NCBI RefSeq assembly: GCF_900454025.1
Contig: NZ_UGQM01000001.1
Location: 4,340,001-4,404,000 of the forward strand
Reading direction: 5' to 3'
Length of the DNA: 64,000 nucleotides
From: Mycolicibacterium gilvum
GTDB lineage: Bacteria > Actinomycetota > Actinomycetes > Mycobacteriales > Mycobacteriaceae
The stretch's first letter is position 1. Each line of letters begins with the position of its first letter. The translations under genes were made by a program, and so were the position numbers. Positions 4,322-59,609 of this stretch are shown here, one piece after another. The notes under the pieces were generated by a model. It saw only the letters and a program-made list of their open reading frames with translations. It ran no database searches and had not been told where the DNA came from.

Positions 4322-4992
4322 CAGAACAAACGGAACTCGTCGCTGTCCATGCCTCGCATCTTGTCGTAATCCAGTGTCAGGCAACGGATTCCGCGATCAG
4401 TCGCGAGCGTCCGAGCCTGCGGTTTGATCTGCTGGGCAGCGAACACGCCTGCCACCGGCGCCAGCAGCGAATCCCGATTGAGCAGCTCGAGATACCGCGT
4501 CAGCTGCTCGACTCCGTCGATCTCACCGCGCCGCTTGATCTCCACCGCCACCGATCGTCCCTGCTCGTCCCGGCACAGCAGGTCGACCGGCCCGATCGGG
4601 GTCATGTACTCACGGCGCACCAGCGTGTAGCCGGCACCGAGCAGTTCCACGTGCTCGGCCAGCAGCGCCTGCAGGTGCGCTTCGACACCGTCCTTGACCA
4701 GACCGGGATCCACCCCCAGCTCGTGGCTGGAGTCGTGTTCGATCGCCTCCACGGTGATGCGCAGCTGCTCCCCCGCCTTGTTCTCGACCACCCAGACGGC
4801 GGTCTCACCGTCTGTCTGTTCGGCCAGTCGGCAGGGTGGACTCATCCAGTTCAGCGGCTTGTAGGCACGGTCGTCGGCGTGCACGCTCACCGATCCGTCG
4901 GCCTTGAACAGCAGCAGCCGCCGGGCCGAAGGGAGGTGAGCGGTGAGTCTTCCGACGTAGTCGACGGTGCACTGGGCGATGACGAGGCGCAC
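4321..4992 (-). CDS. nucS: Mismatch-specific endonuclease NucS (EndoMS)
   Basis: 223 aa. NucS cuts both strands at mismatches and provides the non-canonical mismatch repair of actinobacteria that lack MutS/MutL. The start is GTG 4992 because [16 protein letters not shown] is the normal NucS N-terminus and the length then fits the family (about 226 aa). The nuclease domain is in the second half: [21 protein letters not shown] carries the D-ExK motif, followed by QLTRYLELL. The gene is divergent from the cyclase gene across only 47 bases and corresponds to Rv1321. Confidence 0.95.
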
Positions 4993-5039
4993 CGAACCAC
5001 CATAGATGCAGCGCGTCGGGTCACTAGGCTGACGCCACA

Positions 5040-6650
5040 ATGAACGCGACCAAGAGCGTGCCGTATCGGTTGGGCCGGGTGCTGGAAAGGGTGACACGAC
5101 AGAGCGGACGCCTCGACACCACCGACTACGGCTCCTGGCTGCTGGGCCGATCCGCCGAGTCCCAGAGCCGGCGTCGCATCCGCATCCAGATCATCCTGAC
5201 CTTCTTCATCCTGTTCACCAATGTCCTGGGCATCGCGGTCTCGCTGCTGCTCAACACCATCGCGATCCCCGTGCCCAGCGTCTTCTCCGACGCCCCGGCG
5301 TGGCTGACGTTCGGTGTCACCCCCGCCTACATGCTGGTGGCGCTGTTCTTCGGTACCGCCTGGATCACGTCACGGACCGTCGGCTCCCTGCGGTGGGCCG
5401 TCGAGGAACGTCAGCCGACGAGCACCGACCAGCGCAACGTGTTCCTCGCCCCGGCCCGAGTGGCGCAGAAGCTGTTGCTGCTGTGGGGAGTCGGCACCGT
5501 GCTGCTGACCGTGCTCTACGGGCTGCAGGACTCCGCGTTCATCCCGCGGTTTCTCTTCGCGGTGGGTTTCCCGGGCATCGTCGTCGCCACCGCGTGCTAC
5601 ATGATCACGGAGTTCGCGCTGCGGCCCATCGCGGCCCAGGCACTGGAGGCCGGGCGGCCCCCGCGTCGACTGGCCCACGGCGTCATGGGACGGACCATGA
5701 CGGTCTGGCTGCTCAGCTCCGGCGTTCCGGTGCTCGGCATCCTGTTGCTGGCCGTCTTCTCGCTGTCGCTGAAGAACCTCACCTCGACCCAGTTCGCGGT
5801 CGCCGTCATGATCATCGCCGCGTTCGCGCTGGTGTTCGGATTGACCCTGATGTGGCTGCTGTCCTGGCTCATCGCGACGCCGGTGCGGGTGGTCCGGACG
5901 GCACTCAAGCAGGTCGAGGACGGCGAGCTCGACTGCAACCTGGTGGTGTTCGACGGCACCGAGCTGGGCGAGCTGCAACGCGGTTTCAACTCGATGGTCA
6001 ACGGCCTGCGCGAACGCGAACGCGTGCGCGATCTGTTCGGGCGCCACGTCGGACGCGAGGTCGCCCTCGCTGCCGAGCAGCAGCAGGTCGAACTCGGCGG
6101 CGAGGAACGCCACGCGGCGGTCATCTTCGTCGACATCATCGGGTCCACGAAGCTGGTGACGAGCAGACCCGCCGTCGAGGTCGTCGAACTGCTCAACCGC
6201 TTCTTCGACGTCGTGGTCGACGAGGTCGACAATCACCACGGCCTGGTGAACAAGTTCGAGGGCGACGCGGTGCTGGCGGTGTTCGGCGCACCGGTCTCGC
6301 TGGACAACGCCGAAGCCGAGGCGCTGGCCGCGGCACGCGTCATGAGCCGCCGGCTGGCTGCTGAGGTTCCCGAGTGCACGGCGGGTATCGGGGTGGCCGC
6401 CGGACAGGTCGTCGCCGGAAACGTCGGCGCCAAGGAGCGGTTCGAGTACACCGTCATCGGAGAACCCGTCAACGAAGCCGCACGCCTGTGCGAGCTGTCG
6501 AAGAAGATCGACGGGCACCTGGTCGCATCGGCGGACGCGGTGGACAACGCCACCGAAAGCGAAAGGCGGCATTGGGAACTGGGCGAGACGGTGACCCTGC
6601 GCGGCCACACCGAACCGACCAGGCTGGCCACCCCCGTCGACCGCGACTGA
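5040..6650 (+). CDS. Membrane class III nucleotide cyclase (six TM, HAMP, catalytic domain)
   Basis: 536 aa, ATG start; counterpart of the Rv1318c-Rv1320c cyclases. About six transmembrane helices fill residues 47-280, a HAMP linker covers about 275-330 and the cyclase homology domain about 355-530. Catalytic residues can be placed: metal Asp365 (FVDIIGST) and Asp409 (NKFEGDA), Lys405 for the base, Thr471 at the second base-specifying position (YTVIGEP), and Asn478 and Arg482 for the transition state (VNEAAR). The complete set predicts an active adenylate cyclase. M. tuberculosis has several paralogues in tandem here; this window shows one. Confidence 0.93.
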
Positions 6651-19287: not shown

Positions 19288-24358
<5,071 letters not shown>

Positions 24359-53767: not shown

Positions 53768-54515
53768 TCACACTTTCCGCGTGGTTCCGTAATACCCCAG
53801 GATCGAATCGGACTGGTCGGTCGCATGCGTGAGCACCGCGTAGGACCTGATGAAGGACTCCCCCACGCAACCGTCGATCTTCACGTTGAAGCCACTGATC
53901 GACACCCACGGGTCGTGACCGGTGAACTCTTTGCGTCCCACGGGGACGGTGTTGATGAGGCCGGGCCGCAGGCCGATCGCGACGCCGCCGACGAACGGCG
54001 TCGACAACACCGGCGCGATGCCGTCGATGAACTCGCCCTCGCCGTCGAGTCCCACCAGGCCCAGTGATGGCGTGACTCCTGCGCTGCCCGTGATGGTGAC
54101 GCCATTGGCCCCCATGTCGATGCCGCACCCGATCTGGTAGCCGACCTCCAACACACCGCGTGGTGGCTCGGAGCCCTCCGGTCCGCGCAGCACACCGTTG
54201 AACACTCCACTGACCTGGTAATTCCGCGACGACACCGCGGTCGTCAGGGGGTTGATGTTCCGGATCACCTCGTCTTTGGCGCCCACGGTCAACGCCCAGC
54301 CGTTGGGCGCCGTGGTCGTCGACGGCGGAGCGGACTGGATGAGGCCGTCCGCGCCGGGCGCACTGACCCCAGCCGCGTGGGCGACACGCCTCGCTGACGG
54401 CTGGGTCGGGCACCGGGGCGATGAGAACGGGTGCGGGGTCGGCGGCCGCGGGGAAAGCGGACGTCGGCGGTAGTACCAAGACGATGCTGAGTGCACCGAG
54501 CCACCTCAGCTTCAC
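53768..54515 (-). pseudogene. MspA-type outer-membrane porin, frameshifted
   Basis: The mature part reads as an MspA-family porin: PNGWALTVGAKDEVIRNINPLTTAVSSR, GVLEVGYQIGCGIDMG, GVTPSLGLVG and the end SYAVLTHATDQSDSILGYYG. In that frame the N-terminus is an arginine/proline string with no signal peptide. A good Sec signal, VKLRWLGALSIVLVLPPTSAFPAAADPAPVLIAPVPDP, starts at GTG 54515 in another frame and would join the porin if one base were removed around 54385-54395. The gene is therefore broken by a one-base insertion, or the read has an error, or frameshifting occurs. MspA porins carry small hydrophilic nutrients across the mycolate membrane. Confidence 0.75.
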
Positions 54516-55878: not shown

Positions 55879-56157
55879 TCAGATGCCGGTGCACAGCGCC
55901 ACGAACGGGATCGGCGCGCAGATCCCTATCGAGAAGCCCGGCGTCGGGTCTCCGTTCCACGGTGGCGGCGGTGGCGGGGGCGGTGGAGGCGGAGGTGGTA
56001 GCGGCGCGACGACACAGGTGTCCGTCGATGCGTCGTAGATGGTCCCTGCTCCGCACTCCGCGGCCTGCGCCGTGGGCAGCATTACCACCGAGAGCGCAGC
56101 CAAAGGCGCCAGTGCCGCCGCGGCGACAGCAGTGGAGCGATAAGTCGAGCGCCGCAT
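55879..56157 (-). CDS. Small secreted polyproline protein
   Basis: 92 aa. Signal peptide MRRSTYRSTAVAAAALAPLAALSVVMLPTAQA; mature part about 60 residues: ECGAGTIYDASTDTC, then a run of 13 prolines ending in PWNG, then FSIGICAPIPFVALCTGI. Four cysteines could make two disulfides. Similar short proteins with a Cys-polyPro-Cys layout are seen in mycobacteria, with unknown function. It lies 105 bases downstream of the M50 gene on the same strand and might be part of that transcript. Confidence 0.85.
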   Translation of the reverse strand: MRRSTYRSTAVAAAALAPLAALSVVMLPTAQAAECGAGTIYDASTDTCVVAPLPPPPPPPPPPPPPWNGDPTPGFSIGICAPIPFVALCTGI

Positions 56158-56262: not shown

Positions 56263-58776
56263 TCAGGGAGTGGTGCTCCCGCTCCCGGTCGAGTCGTCCG
56301 TCCCCGTGGTGTCGGTGGTGGTGTCGCCGGCGTCTGCCGTCGCGTCGGTGTTCTGTGTCGTCGGTGCGCTCGTCGCCGACGGCGCAGACGTCTCCGCCAC
56401 CGTGACGGCCGTGGTCGGGTCCGCGACCACCGTCGACTGTTCCGTCTGCTCCGCCGTGCCCGACGTCGTCGGCACGGACGAAGTGGTGGGACTCGCGCTG
56501 GTCGTCGGCGGGGCCGACGTCGAGGTCGTCGGCGGGGCTGACGTGGTGGTCGTCGCCGTCGACGTCGTCGCCGCGACCTGCGTGCCGGCCGTCGTCGGTA
56601 TCGCGTCGGGCTGATCCGCACGAACGATGTCGAGGATCTGCGTGGTGTAGCCGTCCAACCGCGCCTCGATCTCCGCAGGTGCGAGCTTGCCTCCCTCGAT
56701 CTCCTTCTCGAAGGTCGCCATGTTGCTCCAGACCGCGTCAAGTCGCCTCATCGCGTCTTCGGAGAGCGGCTCGTCGAGCGTGACGAACAACTGGCGCGCC
56801 AAGGCATAGGTCAGGCAGTTCACGCATTCGTAGTTCAGTGCGCCCGCGAGGTTCTGTGGTGCCACCACGTTGTCATCGGACTCGTCGCTGTCGACGACGA
56901 AGATCACCTGGTAGGCGACGGCCACCGCGGTGCACGAGCTGCAGGCCGCATAGGCCTGGGCTTCGTTGACATTCATCACGTCGGTGTTGTCGGTGACCCA
57001 CACGAGCGCGAACGCCGCCTCGTAGACGGCCGTGCCGTCCCGGGTGTTGATCGCGAGTGCCTGGGTGTCGCCGGGTTCGGGGGCCAGCGGCCGGTTGACC
57101 GGGAACACCCAGCCGTCGTCCGGCGCAGCAGAGGCCAGGGAACTGGCGCCCGCACCGTTTCCGCCTCCGTTCAGTTCGGTGGACTGCGGCACCAGCACCA
57201 TGGCCAGTTTCGGCGCCTGCGCGGTCGGCATCGGTGCCGACGTGTCCCACACCGCCCGCATGACGCCCCGCTGACCGTTGACCAACTTCGGGGCCGCCAC
57301 CGTCCGCCGGTCGGTCTCACCGCGCCCCGCCGCCGGCGCGTTCATCCAATCCGTCTGCAGGGCGTAGGCGATATCGCCGAGCGTGCCGCGCTCCCACGGC
57401 TGGATGGGTCGGTAGTTCGTGTCGTTGGGCCACCACGCAAGGGCCACTCCCCCGGCGACGCCCACCCCGGCGACAACGGCGAGCAGGCGCATCCCGGCGT
57501 TGCCGGCCGTCGCCTTCCACGTCCCCGCGACGGTGCGCCGCACAAGCCTGACCAGCATGTAGAGCACACCGGCCACCGGAATCACGATCGCGATCATGGC
57601 GAGTACGCGCGCGATCATCTGGATGACGTCGCCGTCCGCCCACGCGTTGACGAGCACATCCCTCTGCGTGGTCAATCCGGCCCACGCGCTGCCGAGCAGA
57701 CGCGGCAGCGCCCAGACGGCGATCGCCAGCGTCGCGAGCAGCAGCGGCACCACGGTCATCACCCACACGGTCACGACGATGCGCGCCCAAGGTTTGAGCA
57801 GGCGCGCCTGCGGGTCGCCCCACCGCCACGGGAGGACGCCGAGCAGGGTCGGCTTGATTCGCGAGTAGAGATCGGGAACGCCGGTCAGGTCAGCGAGAAC
57901 GTGGTAGCCGTCGAAACGCACCAGCGGAGCGAGTTGGCGCAGCATCTGCAGGATCTGGGTGGCGACCACCAGCAGCAGCGCGTCGTAGTCCAGCCAGAGC
58001 CAGACGCCGGTGATGGCGATCGCGACCAGCGCGTTGAAATACAGCCCGCCGAGGTCGGTGCGGATCCGTCCCCAGCGGCCCAGCCGATAGGAGTCCGTCA
58101 CGTCGGTGTAGAACGCGGGCCACACCAGGTACACGCCGAATCCCATGACGCCCGGAGTCGAGCCTCCGTACCGGGCCGCGGCGGCGTGACCGAACTCGTG
58201 GAAACCCGCCGACAGGATGGTGACCACGAAGACCAGGATCAACAGGCCGGGACGTTGGAACGCGTCGTATGCGGCTGACGCCAGGCCCTTTTCGAAGAAG
58301 ACCCACCAGCACACGACGCCGAACGCGACCAGTGCCGGCAGCACGACCCAGCCGCGGAACAGCACCCGGAACGGGTCGGTCAGTCGACGGGTGCGCGCAG
58401 GATCGGTGACTGCATAGCGAAAACGCAGACCGAGCAACGGATTCCGCTTCTCGACCTCCGGCTGAGTTCCATCCGCGCGCGTCAACAGACCGAGTGGGCG
58501 CAGCTTCTGCTCGACGAGTACAACGACGTTGTCCTCGTTGACATCTCGGCCCGTCGATGCCGACACCGCGGCTGCGACCTGTTCCGCCGACCGTTTCCCG
58601 TCGATCTCCCGCAGTATCGCGTAGAGAAGGGGCGTCAACTGCACGGTCTGACCGTCGGCCCGGCGGACCAGCGAGGGCGGGTTCCGGTAACCCGAACCCG
58701 CCATCTCGCCGATCAGCTCGACGCCGTCGGCATGCCGCAGTCGCGTCTGCGTCGGCTGCGTGCCCGTGGCTGTCAC
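56263..58776 (-). CDS. PqqD-like/M50 metalloprotease membrane protein with extracytoplasmic domain
   Basis: 837 aa, GTG start with GGAG upstream. Residues 35-100 resemble the PqqD/RiPP-recognition winged helix ([42 protein letters not shown]). Membrane helices begin near 140. The site-2-protease zinc motif is HEFGH 193-197, and the third ligand is likely Asp289 in PLVRFDGYHVLADL, as in 'peptide zinc metalloprotease' proteins. More helices follow to about 450. An outer domain (450-725) has CSSC (612-615) and CVNC (651-654), then a Ser/Thr/Ala tail of about 110 residues. It probably processes a protein in the membrane; the repeat protein encoded 20 bases upstream is the obvious candidate. Confidence 0.85.
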   Translation of the reverse strand: MTATGTQPTQTRLRHADGVELIGEMAGSGYRNPPSLVRRADGQTVQLTPLLYAILREIDGKRSAEQVAAAVSASTGRDVNEDNVVVLVEQKLRPLGLLTRADGTQPEVEKRNPLLGLRFRYAVTDPARTRRLTDPFRVLFRGWVVLPALVAFGVVCWWVFFEKGLASAAYDAFQRPGLLILVFVVTILSAGFHEFGHAAAARYGGSTPGVMGFGVYLVWPAFYTDVTDSYRLGRWGRIRTDLGGLYFNALVAIAITGVWLWLDYDALLLVVATQILQMLRQLAPLVRFDGYHVLADLTGVPDLYSRIKPTLLGVLPWRWGDPQARLLKPWARIVVTVWVMTVVPLLLATLAIAVWALPRLLGSAWAGLTTQRDVLVNAWADGDVIQMIARVLAMIAIVIPVAGVLYMLVRLVRRTVAGTWKATAGNAGMRLLAVVAGVGVAGGVALAWWPNDTNYRPIQPWERGTLGDIAYALQTDWMNAPAAGRGETDRRTVAAPKLVNGQRGVMRAVWDTSAPMPTAQAPKLAMVLVPQSTELNGGGNGAGASSLASAAPDDGWVFPVNRPLAPEPGDTQALAINTRDGTAVYEAAFALVWVTDNTDVMNVNEAQAYAACSSCTAVAVAYQVIFVVDSDESDDNVVAPQNLAGALNYECVNCLTYALARQLFVTLDEPLSEDAMRRLDAVWSNMATFEKEIEGGKLAPAEIEARLDGYTTQILDIVRADQPDAIPTTAGTQVAATTSTATTTTSAPPTTSTSAPPTTSASPTTSSVPTTSGTAEQTEQSTVVADPTTAVTVAETSAPSATSAPTTQNTDATADAGDTTTDTTGTDDSTGSGSTTP

Positions 58777-58796
58777 GACAGCGCTCCGAACTCAGG

Positions 58797-59609
58797 TCAG
58801 CCCGCGGAATCGGTGTCGGAGGAGCCGGAATCCGTCCCGCCGCTCGCCGAGTCGGTCGTGCCGCCGCTGTCGGCCGAGGCCGCGCTGTCGGCCGAACCGC
58901 CGACGGCCGACGCGTCACCATCGCCTTGCGAGATGGTCGAATTCTGGTCGGCTTCCGCGACAGCCTCGCCGATGACGGTCTGCTTGATGATGGCGTCCTG
59001 CTCGGCGACCGAGATCGCGTCGGAGTCGATCGAGCCGATATTGGCGGACACGCCGGCGTTGATCGGCGCGGCGACGTTCGCGTTGGCCGCCACAGCACCG
59101 CTGATCGGCGCGGCCAGATCGGAGTCGAGGTCGACGTTGACGTTGACGTTGAGCAGGTTGCCGTCGAGCAGTGCGCCCGGGCTGGTGTCGACCTCCGCGC
59201 CGGTGCCGTCGTCCGTGCCGTCGCCGGATCCGTCTCCGGTGCCGGGAACGACGCCGGTGCCGTCGGTGGGCACCTCGTCGGCGTCGGTGTCCATACCGCC
59301 CTGATCGATGCCGCTGACCTGGGTGGAAGTGGCGTAGGCGTCGGCGTCGAGCATCTGCTCGATCGACGTGCCCTGATCGACCGTCGCCTGGCTGCCGGAC
59401 CCGTAGGTCAGCACGTTGGCGCCGGCTGCCGCGTCGATGGGCGCGGCGACGTTCAGGTTGGCCGCCGCCGCCAGATCGATGGGCGACGCGGCGTCGATGG
59501 CGACGTCGACGTCGGCGTTCAGGTCGAGGATGGACACGACCTCTTTGTCAGGCAGCGCGATCGCGCTCTCGGCCAGAAGTTCCTCCGGCGTCAGTCCCTG
59601 GGTGCTCAT
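58797..59609 (-). CDS. Cysteine-free Ala/Asp/Asn repeat protein, candidate substrate of the M50 protein
   Basis: 270 aa from ATG 59609 with an AGCGAGG site; the frame is open 25 codons further but without RBS. There is no signal peptide, membrane helix or cysteine. A leader-like start (MSTQGLTPEELLAESAIALP, then DKEVVSILDLN) is followed by two aligned 36-residue repeats (31-66 and 156-191; 20 of 36 identical), each holding two 14-residue units of the form A-A-P-I-x-x-A-x-x-A-N. Between and after them are Asp/Gly/Thr- and Ser/Ala/Gly-rich linkers. The composition is very acidic. I do not recognise an activity. A secreted or surface-assembled product processed by its neighbour is inference. Confidence 0.82.
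   Translation of the reverse strand: MSTQGLTPEELLAESAIALPDKEVVSILDLNADVDVAIDAASPIDLAAAANLNVAAPIDAAAGANVLTYGSGSQATVDQGTSIEQMLDADAYATSTQVSGIDQGGMDTDADEVPTDGTGVVPGTGDGSGDGTDDGTGAEVDTSPGALLDGNLLNVNVNVDLDSDLAAPISGAVAANANVAAPINAGVSANIGSIDSDAISVAEQDAIIKQTVIGEAVAEADQNSTISQGDGDASAVGGSADSAASADSGGTTDSASGGTDSGSSDTDSAG

Follow-up and report, generated by a model that had tools for sequence, protein, structure and literature searches.

A leader-bearing repeat protein and an adjacent RRE-fused site-2 protease in Mycolicibacterium gilvum: a candidate leader-guided maturation pair of Actinomycetota

The window analysed here, a stretch of 64,000 nucleotides from Mycolicibacterium gilvum (contig NZ_UGQM01000001.1, positions 4,340,001 to 4,404,000), carries on its minus strand two open reading frames (ORFs) 20 bases apart, encoding a leader-bearing repeat protein of 270 amino acids and a membrane protein of 837 amino acids in which an RRE/PqqD-like domain is predicted to be fused to a site-2 (M50) protease core (Table 1). 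Both ORFs had been proposed in a first-pass annotation of the sequence and were confirmed. The repeat-protein ORF begins with an ATG at 59609; a longer GTG-start version reaches 59684, and the majority of relatives begin at or near the ATG. The protease ORF has a GTG start. Each gene of the pair has one match in the host genome, and the protease agrees over its full length, at 100% identity, with a protein named for M. gilvum. Among about 8000 candidates scored for each query, at least 2602 related proteins passed E 0.001 with the repeat-protein query and at least 5012 with the protease query, so the gene pair is not a product of chance.

The repeat protein is acidic (net charge −44), contains no cysteine and consists of a leader, a first repeat unit, a Gly/Thr/Asp-rich linker, a second unit and a variable tail. 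Units 1 and 2 gave a local alignment score of 141, whereas none of 300 shuffles exceeded 71; the two repeats are therefore real, and the ordered repeats and lack of cysteine described in the first-pass annotation were borne out. The most conserved stretch of the repeat family is formed by leader residues 18–31, ALPDKEVVSILDLN, with a mean majority frequency of 0.93, as compared with 0.67 for residues 6–17 and 0.76–0.78 for the repeat units. The leader quoted in the first-pass annotation, LTPEELLAESAIALP, does belong to a conserved leader, but most of the quote covers the weaker residues 6–17 and not the strongest part. The cores of the family share at least 70% identity in many mycobacterial relatives and about 60% across families. 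No Pfam match was obtained for the repeat protein at E up to 0.01 or for any of the 68 family members scanned, no family was assigned by the NCBIfam scan, and no Sec signal was apparent on inspection by eye, made without a predictor. The name “peptidoglycan-binding protein”, attached at source to some relatives, is doubted because these proteins have no recognised domain and no Pfam support in the 68 members. The predicted model is of low confidence (predicted local distance difference test, pLDDT, 56.7) and contains two beta-rich units at residues 61–102 and 186–227, which is only suggestive of a structural or surface role. In the regular spacing of their Gln, Asn and Ala residues the repeats may resemble curli-type fibre subunits, although none of the 68 relatives has a Pfam match and the model is of low confidence. 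Curli-type subunits use a different secretion route.

In the second protein, three strands followed by three helices are predicted for the N-terminal region, a winged-helix fold of the RRE/PqqD-like type; the PqqD-like winged helix of the first-pass annotation was thus upheld as a fold, while its span had to be changed from residues 35–100 to about 11–100. The HExxH motif and a second Asp ligand lie inside the transmembrane core, as in site-2 (M50) proteases, and both HEFGH and Asp 289 of RFDGYH are invariant across 14 aligned protease sequences. These motifs and the outer domain, all noted in the first-pass annotation, are present, and the outer domain contains CxxC pairs at residues 612 and 651. 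The mean pLDDT of the protease model is 64.8, with most of the Thr/Pro/Ser-rich tail below 50, and two domains were resolved in a second, domain-level fold comparison (VIA). A “bindosome BasB” NCBIfam match of one outer-domain protein (E 0.02) was dropped as a chance-level score; the papers found for it concern archaeal pili and surface structures.

Table 1 Features of the gene pair and the basis of their assignment
Feature	Residues	Positions in the window	Strand	Basis
Leader-bearing two-unit repeat protein, 270 amino acids, candidate substrate		58797..59609	-	ORF and alignment of relatives
Leader, acidic stretch LTPEELLAESAI	6-17	59559..59594	-	alignment, 0.67
Leader element ALPDKEVVSILDLN, counterpart of array-peptide ELPDRExMSLIN	18-31	59517..59558	-	alignments, 0.93
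Repeat unit 1	about 32-104	59298..59516	-	internal alignment
Repeat unit 2	about 149-229	58923..59165	-	internal alignment
Ser/Gly/Asp-rich tail, missing from many relatives	230-270	58800..58922	-	alignment
Site-2 (M50) protease carrying an RRE domain and an outer domain, 837 amino acids		56263..58776	-	NF041824 match; predicted structure
RRE/PqqD-like winged-helix domain	11-100	58477..58746	-	predicted fold
Site-2 protease core with transmembrane helices	about 118-449	57430..58425	-	
HEFGH zinc motif	193-197	58186..58200	-	alignment
RFDGYH, likely second zinc-ligand region	287-292	57901..57918	-	alignment
Outer domain, two CxxC pairs	about 450-725	56602..57429	-	separate protein in other loci
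Thr/Pro/Ser-rich tail	about 726-837	56266..56601	-	sequence; low pLDDT

The linkage of the two genes was followed in loci anchored on the repeat protein, namely the best 80 of 189 confirmed relatives from a profile search of genome contigs. The protease gene adjoins the repeat gene downstream on the same strand in 80 of the 80 loci, with a median of 82 bases and a maximum of 390 from the repeat-gene stop to the aligned part of the protease; the loci come from mycobacteria, Arthrobacter, Nocardioides, Blastococcus, Actinokineospora, Microbacterium and others. Among 118 sampled genomes of the class, matches were found in 16 for the repeat profile, in 27 for the protease (query residues 20–320, E up to 1e-10; 22 strong, with E below 1e-50) and in 18 for the outer domain, a search in which at most 24 candidates were scored per genome, so that distant copies may be missed. 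All 16 repeat-profile genomes are among the 27 protease genomes and 15 among the 22 strong ones, and all 18 outer-domain genomes are among the latter; in genome G084 the repeat-profile match is accompanied by a protease fragment of 44 residues only. The nominal hypergeometric probabilities are about 6e-13 (repeat/protease) and 9e-18 (outer domain/protease), both too small on account of genome relatedness. The co-occurrence of the two families, left in the first-pass annotation as a matter to check, thereby held both in the anchored loci and in the 16 repeat-family genomes. Three further sampled genomes from the genus of the window (G003, G066, G082) and two from its family (G031, G107) gave no match to repeat protein, protease or outer domain. 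In a phylum sample of 198 genomes the protease was matched in 18, and 13 of these fall outside the class; the system is thus widespread within Actinomycetota, though patchily distributed.

In five loci of the class sample (L086–L090) and six outside the class (L112–L116, L118), the protease stands beside arrays of one to four genes for peptides of about 64–82 amino acids, each made of a leader and one repeat unit, with the usual pattern LTxEELxxxxGEELPDRExMSLINANLAAPVNAAVAANVLSDxSxAYANAEQxxxIxQ; L112 additionally carries a longer two-unit form, and in L116 the peptide genes are divergent from the protease. As the array peptides combine a leader with one unit, the mycobacterial repeat protein is a leader with two fused units, drawn from a very large family of precursor-like peptides of ~70 amino acids. 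A profile of ten array peptides matched at least 7999 proteins, and the names among the 120 matches listed are, where present, always a form of “hypothetical protein”. In L086–L089, L115 and L116 the outer domain is encoded separately, as a protein whose N-terminus looks signal-like by eye; the same holds for L097 and L109, the precursor genes of which lie off that contig. Two outer-domain proteins flank the array of L088 on opposite strands, 4513–5319 (+) and 1066–1962 (−), so the outer domain can be duplicated. Small leaderless genes were seen ahead of the array genes in four loci (L113:1804–2064, L114:3613–3813, L115:6828–7055, L118:3740–3988) and ahead of the protease in L117 (5763–6020); they resemble the core unit (pattern like NVAGxxNAAVxANVGE; weak profile matches, E 1.3e-4 at best), and their products could be cytoplasmic or nucleating partners.

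A leader element is kept on cores that have changed. A profile built solely from the array peptides of L085–L090, called the leader profile below, was run on the ORFs of 13 other loci, and it picked out seven ORFs at E below 1. Each of them lies no more than 0.9 kb upstream of the protease, and they belong to six divergent loci (L098–L103) that have a strong protease and no repeat-profile match. Taken singly, just the two in L099 are convincing (2.6e-7 and 1.5e-5). The ORFs found have LLPxR in common, and their cores differ. The repeat-protein profile gave in the same loci two matches away from the protease (E 0.073 and 0.28), taken as chance, and two further weak ones in the L099 precursors. 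No leader-profile match was found in L104–L108, whose weak protease matches were treated as other M50 families. Leader elements outside the class read ELPGRDLL, LLPDRLEM, ELPEREMM, ALPARDLM, DLPDREML and QLPSRRLM, and the element common to the loci resembles LPx[RK].

A strict motif was also sought within 1200 bases upstream on the same strand. Of 38 strong protease places in the class and phylum samples, 32 were fetched and six, including that of the window, left out; two of the 32 lay at contig edges, and 30 were tested. The motif was present in 24 of the 30 upstream windows; in the controls it occurred in 18 of 152 windows, and on the antisense strand in 5 of 30. Four misses were excluded by the pattern itself (L091 LPDKEVI, L094 LPDKEVA, L110 LPAKEVI, L114 LEDREEM) and the divergent L116 by the strand rule; by inspection, a leader-bearing ORF is nearby in 29 of 30 loci. 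A plain ORF count with a similar pattern gave 52 of 293 upstream ORFs and 95 of 2924 others. The leader-profile search is the cleaner of these tests because the strict motif was written after looking at the sequences. A leader kept on changed cores lends independent weight to the leader-guided recruitment proposed in the first-pass annotation; the maturation or export that had been added to it stays inferential. In L100–L103, a branch without a detected outer domain, each locus has at least two leader-bearing ORFs, several of which share LLPERxTLAA(V/I)EI(G/N)RxEF and SPxSN-like motifs.

Neighbouring genes bear on whether anything else acts on the substrate. Radical SAM, YcaO, LanC-like and ABC-transporter domains were absent from the 11 neighbouring window ORFs scanned with Pfam, other small ORFs being outside that scan, which agrees with the earlier remark that no radical SAM or transporter gene is nearby. 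A conserved third gene was sought in the 80 loci among ORFs chosen longest-first with a minimum of 90 amino acids, so a small gene could be missed; the largest further clusters are present in 19, 18, 16 and 16 of 80 loci. One member of each of clusters 2–11 was assigned by Pfam: acetate kinase, prolyl oligopeptidase, phosphotransacetylase, GAF domain, pyridine-nucleotide oxidoreductase, GNAT acetyltransferase, NlpC/P60, LytR-CpsA-Psr, acyl-CoA dehydrogenase and one unmatched, perhaps wrong-frame ORF. No enzyme of the type found in pathways for ribosomally synthesised and post-translationally modified peptides (RiPPs) and no shared transporter was recognised among the members scanned for these ten clusters.

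The adjacency of the genes, their linkage within the class and beyond it, the leader element on divergent cores and the predicted RRE-like and site-2-protease-like folds are what computation has shown. We read the gene pair as a substrate and its dedicated maturation protease, guided by the leader and needing no further modification, and we put the probability of this reading at roughly 0.7. Site-2 proteases cut near the cytoplasmic membrane face. The cytoplasmic RRE domain would bind the leader element of the new repeat protein, around ALPDKEVVS, and pass the chain to the fused protease core, whose active site would lie near that face. The core would then remove the leader at or just after the element (near LPDKEVVS), and the freed repeat region would reach the outside of the membrane, to be received, folded or anchored there by the outer CxxC domain, whether this is fused or a protein of its own, no other modification being required. 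We infer here that the leader is bound, that it is cut and where, that the product is exported and what the outer domain does; the pair would thereby act on a protein-sized substrate. Binding of leader peptides by RRE domains is itself described (PMC10036551, PMC12710340).

Several observations weigh against this reading. Foldseek with the whole protease model returned nothing at E below 0.001, with SpoIVFB at rank 4. By hydropathy alone, the sequence up to residue 449 has six segments when the overlapping pair at 242–271 is counted as one, which would place the outer domain inside; the split made by the model at 242–271 is needed for the seven segments that would place it outside, and an additional segment flagged at 610–628, within the outer domain, leaves the topology uncertain. 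The best 19-residue mean hydrophobicity of the repeat units, 1.27, is below that of a classical transmembrane substrate, and no export channel was identified for the proposed route. The outer domain was not detected in 4 of the 22 strong-protease genomes (G038, G088, G100, G111), nor beside the protease in array locus L090. Among the leader tests, the post hoc wording of the strict motif counts here as well, the strong protease locus L117 is a true miss with no detectable leader ORF, and the leader ORF of L124 rests on the pattern alone.

Because the repeat units are well conserved, a repetitive protein outside the cell or on its surface is, in the lineage of the window, a likelier product than an antimicrobial that diversifies fast. 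A wider and tentative extension, to which we give somewhat less than even odds, is a stand-alone route of Actinomycetota that would mature and export peptides and repeat proteins which are unmodified and have no Sec signal, the leader serving as an export tag for interchangeable cargo, from single units of ~40 residues encoded in gene arrays up to the two-unit surface protein.

In a doubtful alternative, the protease matures and exports bacteriocin-like peptides that carry little or no modification. Tandem arrays of similar short precursors and the widely different cores of some loci do resemble peptide natural products, and the epipeptide protease EpeP/YydH/LiaK, an M50 intramembrane protease, is believed to combine cleavage of its peptide with export (PMC10885120). 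However, the cores are conserved in the lineage of the window, no shared transporter stands among the ten neighbour clusters, each sampled by one member (immunity genes being unrecognisable in this way), and deletion of EpeP left some EpeX production, so that the route is open even there (PMC10885120).

A further and rather improbable reading takes the repeat protein for a RiPP, modified by an enzyme encoded elsewhere in the genome, with the protease acting last. RRE domains are typical of RiPP pathways (PMC10036551, PMC12710340), and the “minimal, modification-free” route of the first-pass annotation, which fits the neighbourhoods examined, leaves room for such a distant enzyme; against it stand the lack of cysteine in the window protein and of any RiPP-type enzyme in the 11 window neighbours or the ten clusters. 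A slighter chance is given to the repeat protein being an uncut structural or chaperone partner that the RRE merely docks. Cleavage is so far a proposal and the repeat units are not strongly transmembrane-like, but an uncut partner would not account for catalytic motifs that are invariant in the 14 proteases, nor for a leader element kept while the cores change.

Site-2 proteases commonly act in regulated intramembrane proteolysis, and the repeat protein could be a sensor or regulator whose cut relays an outside signal, possibly the redox state or a metal sensed by the outer CxxC domain. This is very improbable, as the substrate has neither a DNA-binding nor a sigma-factor domain by Pfam, gene arrays for short peptides that are nearly identical fit poorly, and RRE-like domains are substrate readers in known cases (PMC12710340).

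Of the known systems, the daptides come close to the pair of substrate and protease proposed here. Their MpaP (NF041824) is likewise an RRE-fused site-2 protease, their clusters have several short precursors as in the array loci, their leader motif ELExMEAP superficially resembles ELPDREAM of the present system, and 302 of 483 daptide clusters are in Actinomycetota (PMC10036551). NF041824 matched the window protease at E 4.6e-29 and 101.7 bits, missing the cut-off of 300, and gave 95.2–117.5 bits with three array-type proteases; no DapB-like/DUF-RRE protein, oxidative decarboxylase, aminotransferase or methyltransferase was recognised in the 11 window neighbours or the ten clusters. Since the cut-off was missed and the daptide enzymes were not recognised, the system is not filed under the daptide pathway; it is further set apart by the outer CxxC domain and the two-unit repeat protein, and the cores seen here have no counterpart of the invariant C-terminal Thr of daptide cores. 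The daptide RRE-fused proteases (PMC10036551) and the place of the repeat protein in the ~70-residue peptide family both go beyond the first-pass annotation.

More distant likenesses were found as well. The epipeptide protease EpeP is likewise an M50 intramembrane protease; its model NF058609 gave the window protease 42.5 bits against a cut-off of 225, the window protease has an RRE fusion and an outer domain, and the scan of neighbours recognised no radical SAM gene. The pearlin enzymes TglG and TmoG are also membrane-bound M50 proteases acting on a substrate peptide, but cut a modified residue from its C-terminus and remove no leader (PMC10885120). The domain fold predicted here is also that of the lasso peptide B1 RRE, solved with bound leader (6jx3, 5v1u, 5v1v). 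Lasso systems use a separate soluble RRE, a different protease and a cyclase. No description of the present system was found among the papers listed in searches of an open-access library, subscription papers and supplements being outside that search. What emerges would be a family of site-2 proteases guided by an RRE, with precursors and an outer domain of their own, and thus a partly supported variant of peptide maturation under RRE guidance.

Most RRE domains known so far work in pathways that modify peptides. The one described here seems instead to lead a membrane protease to cargo encoded beside it, no modifying enzyme having been recognised in the vicinity, in a system that is present in the class of the window and further in the phylum and has thousands of relatives without a functional name. 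If the reading is true, a function would be given to many “hypothetical” and probably misnamed “peptidoglycan-binding” proteins and to the unnamed outer domain, and leader tags would serve the maturation, perhaps the export, of ordinary proteins. The leader is short and defined, hence the mechanism is directly testable.

Next downstream of the protease gene lies a small gene (55879–56157) with a signal-like N-terminus and a proline run. Further along the window, an MspA-family porin gene (53768–54496; Pfam PF09203, 154 bits) lies near an arginyl-tRNA synthetase gene, and positions 20001–24000 have a GC content of 0.56 and a GC skew of −0.19, the GC content of the remaining window being 0.64–0.69.

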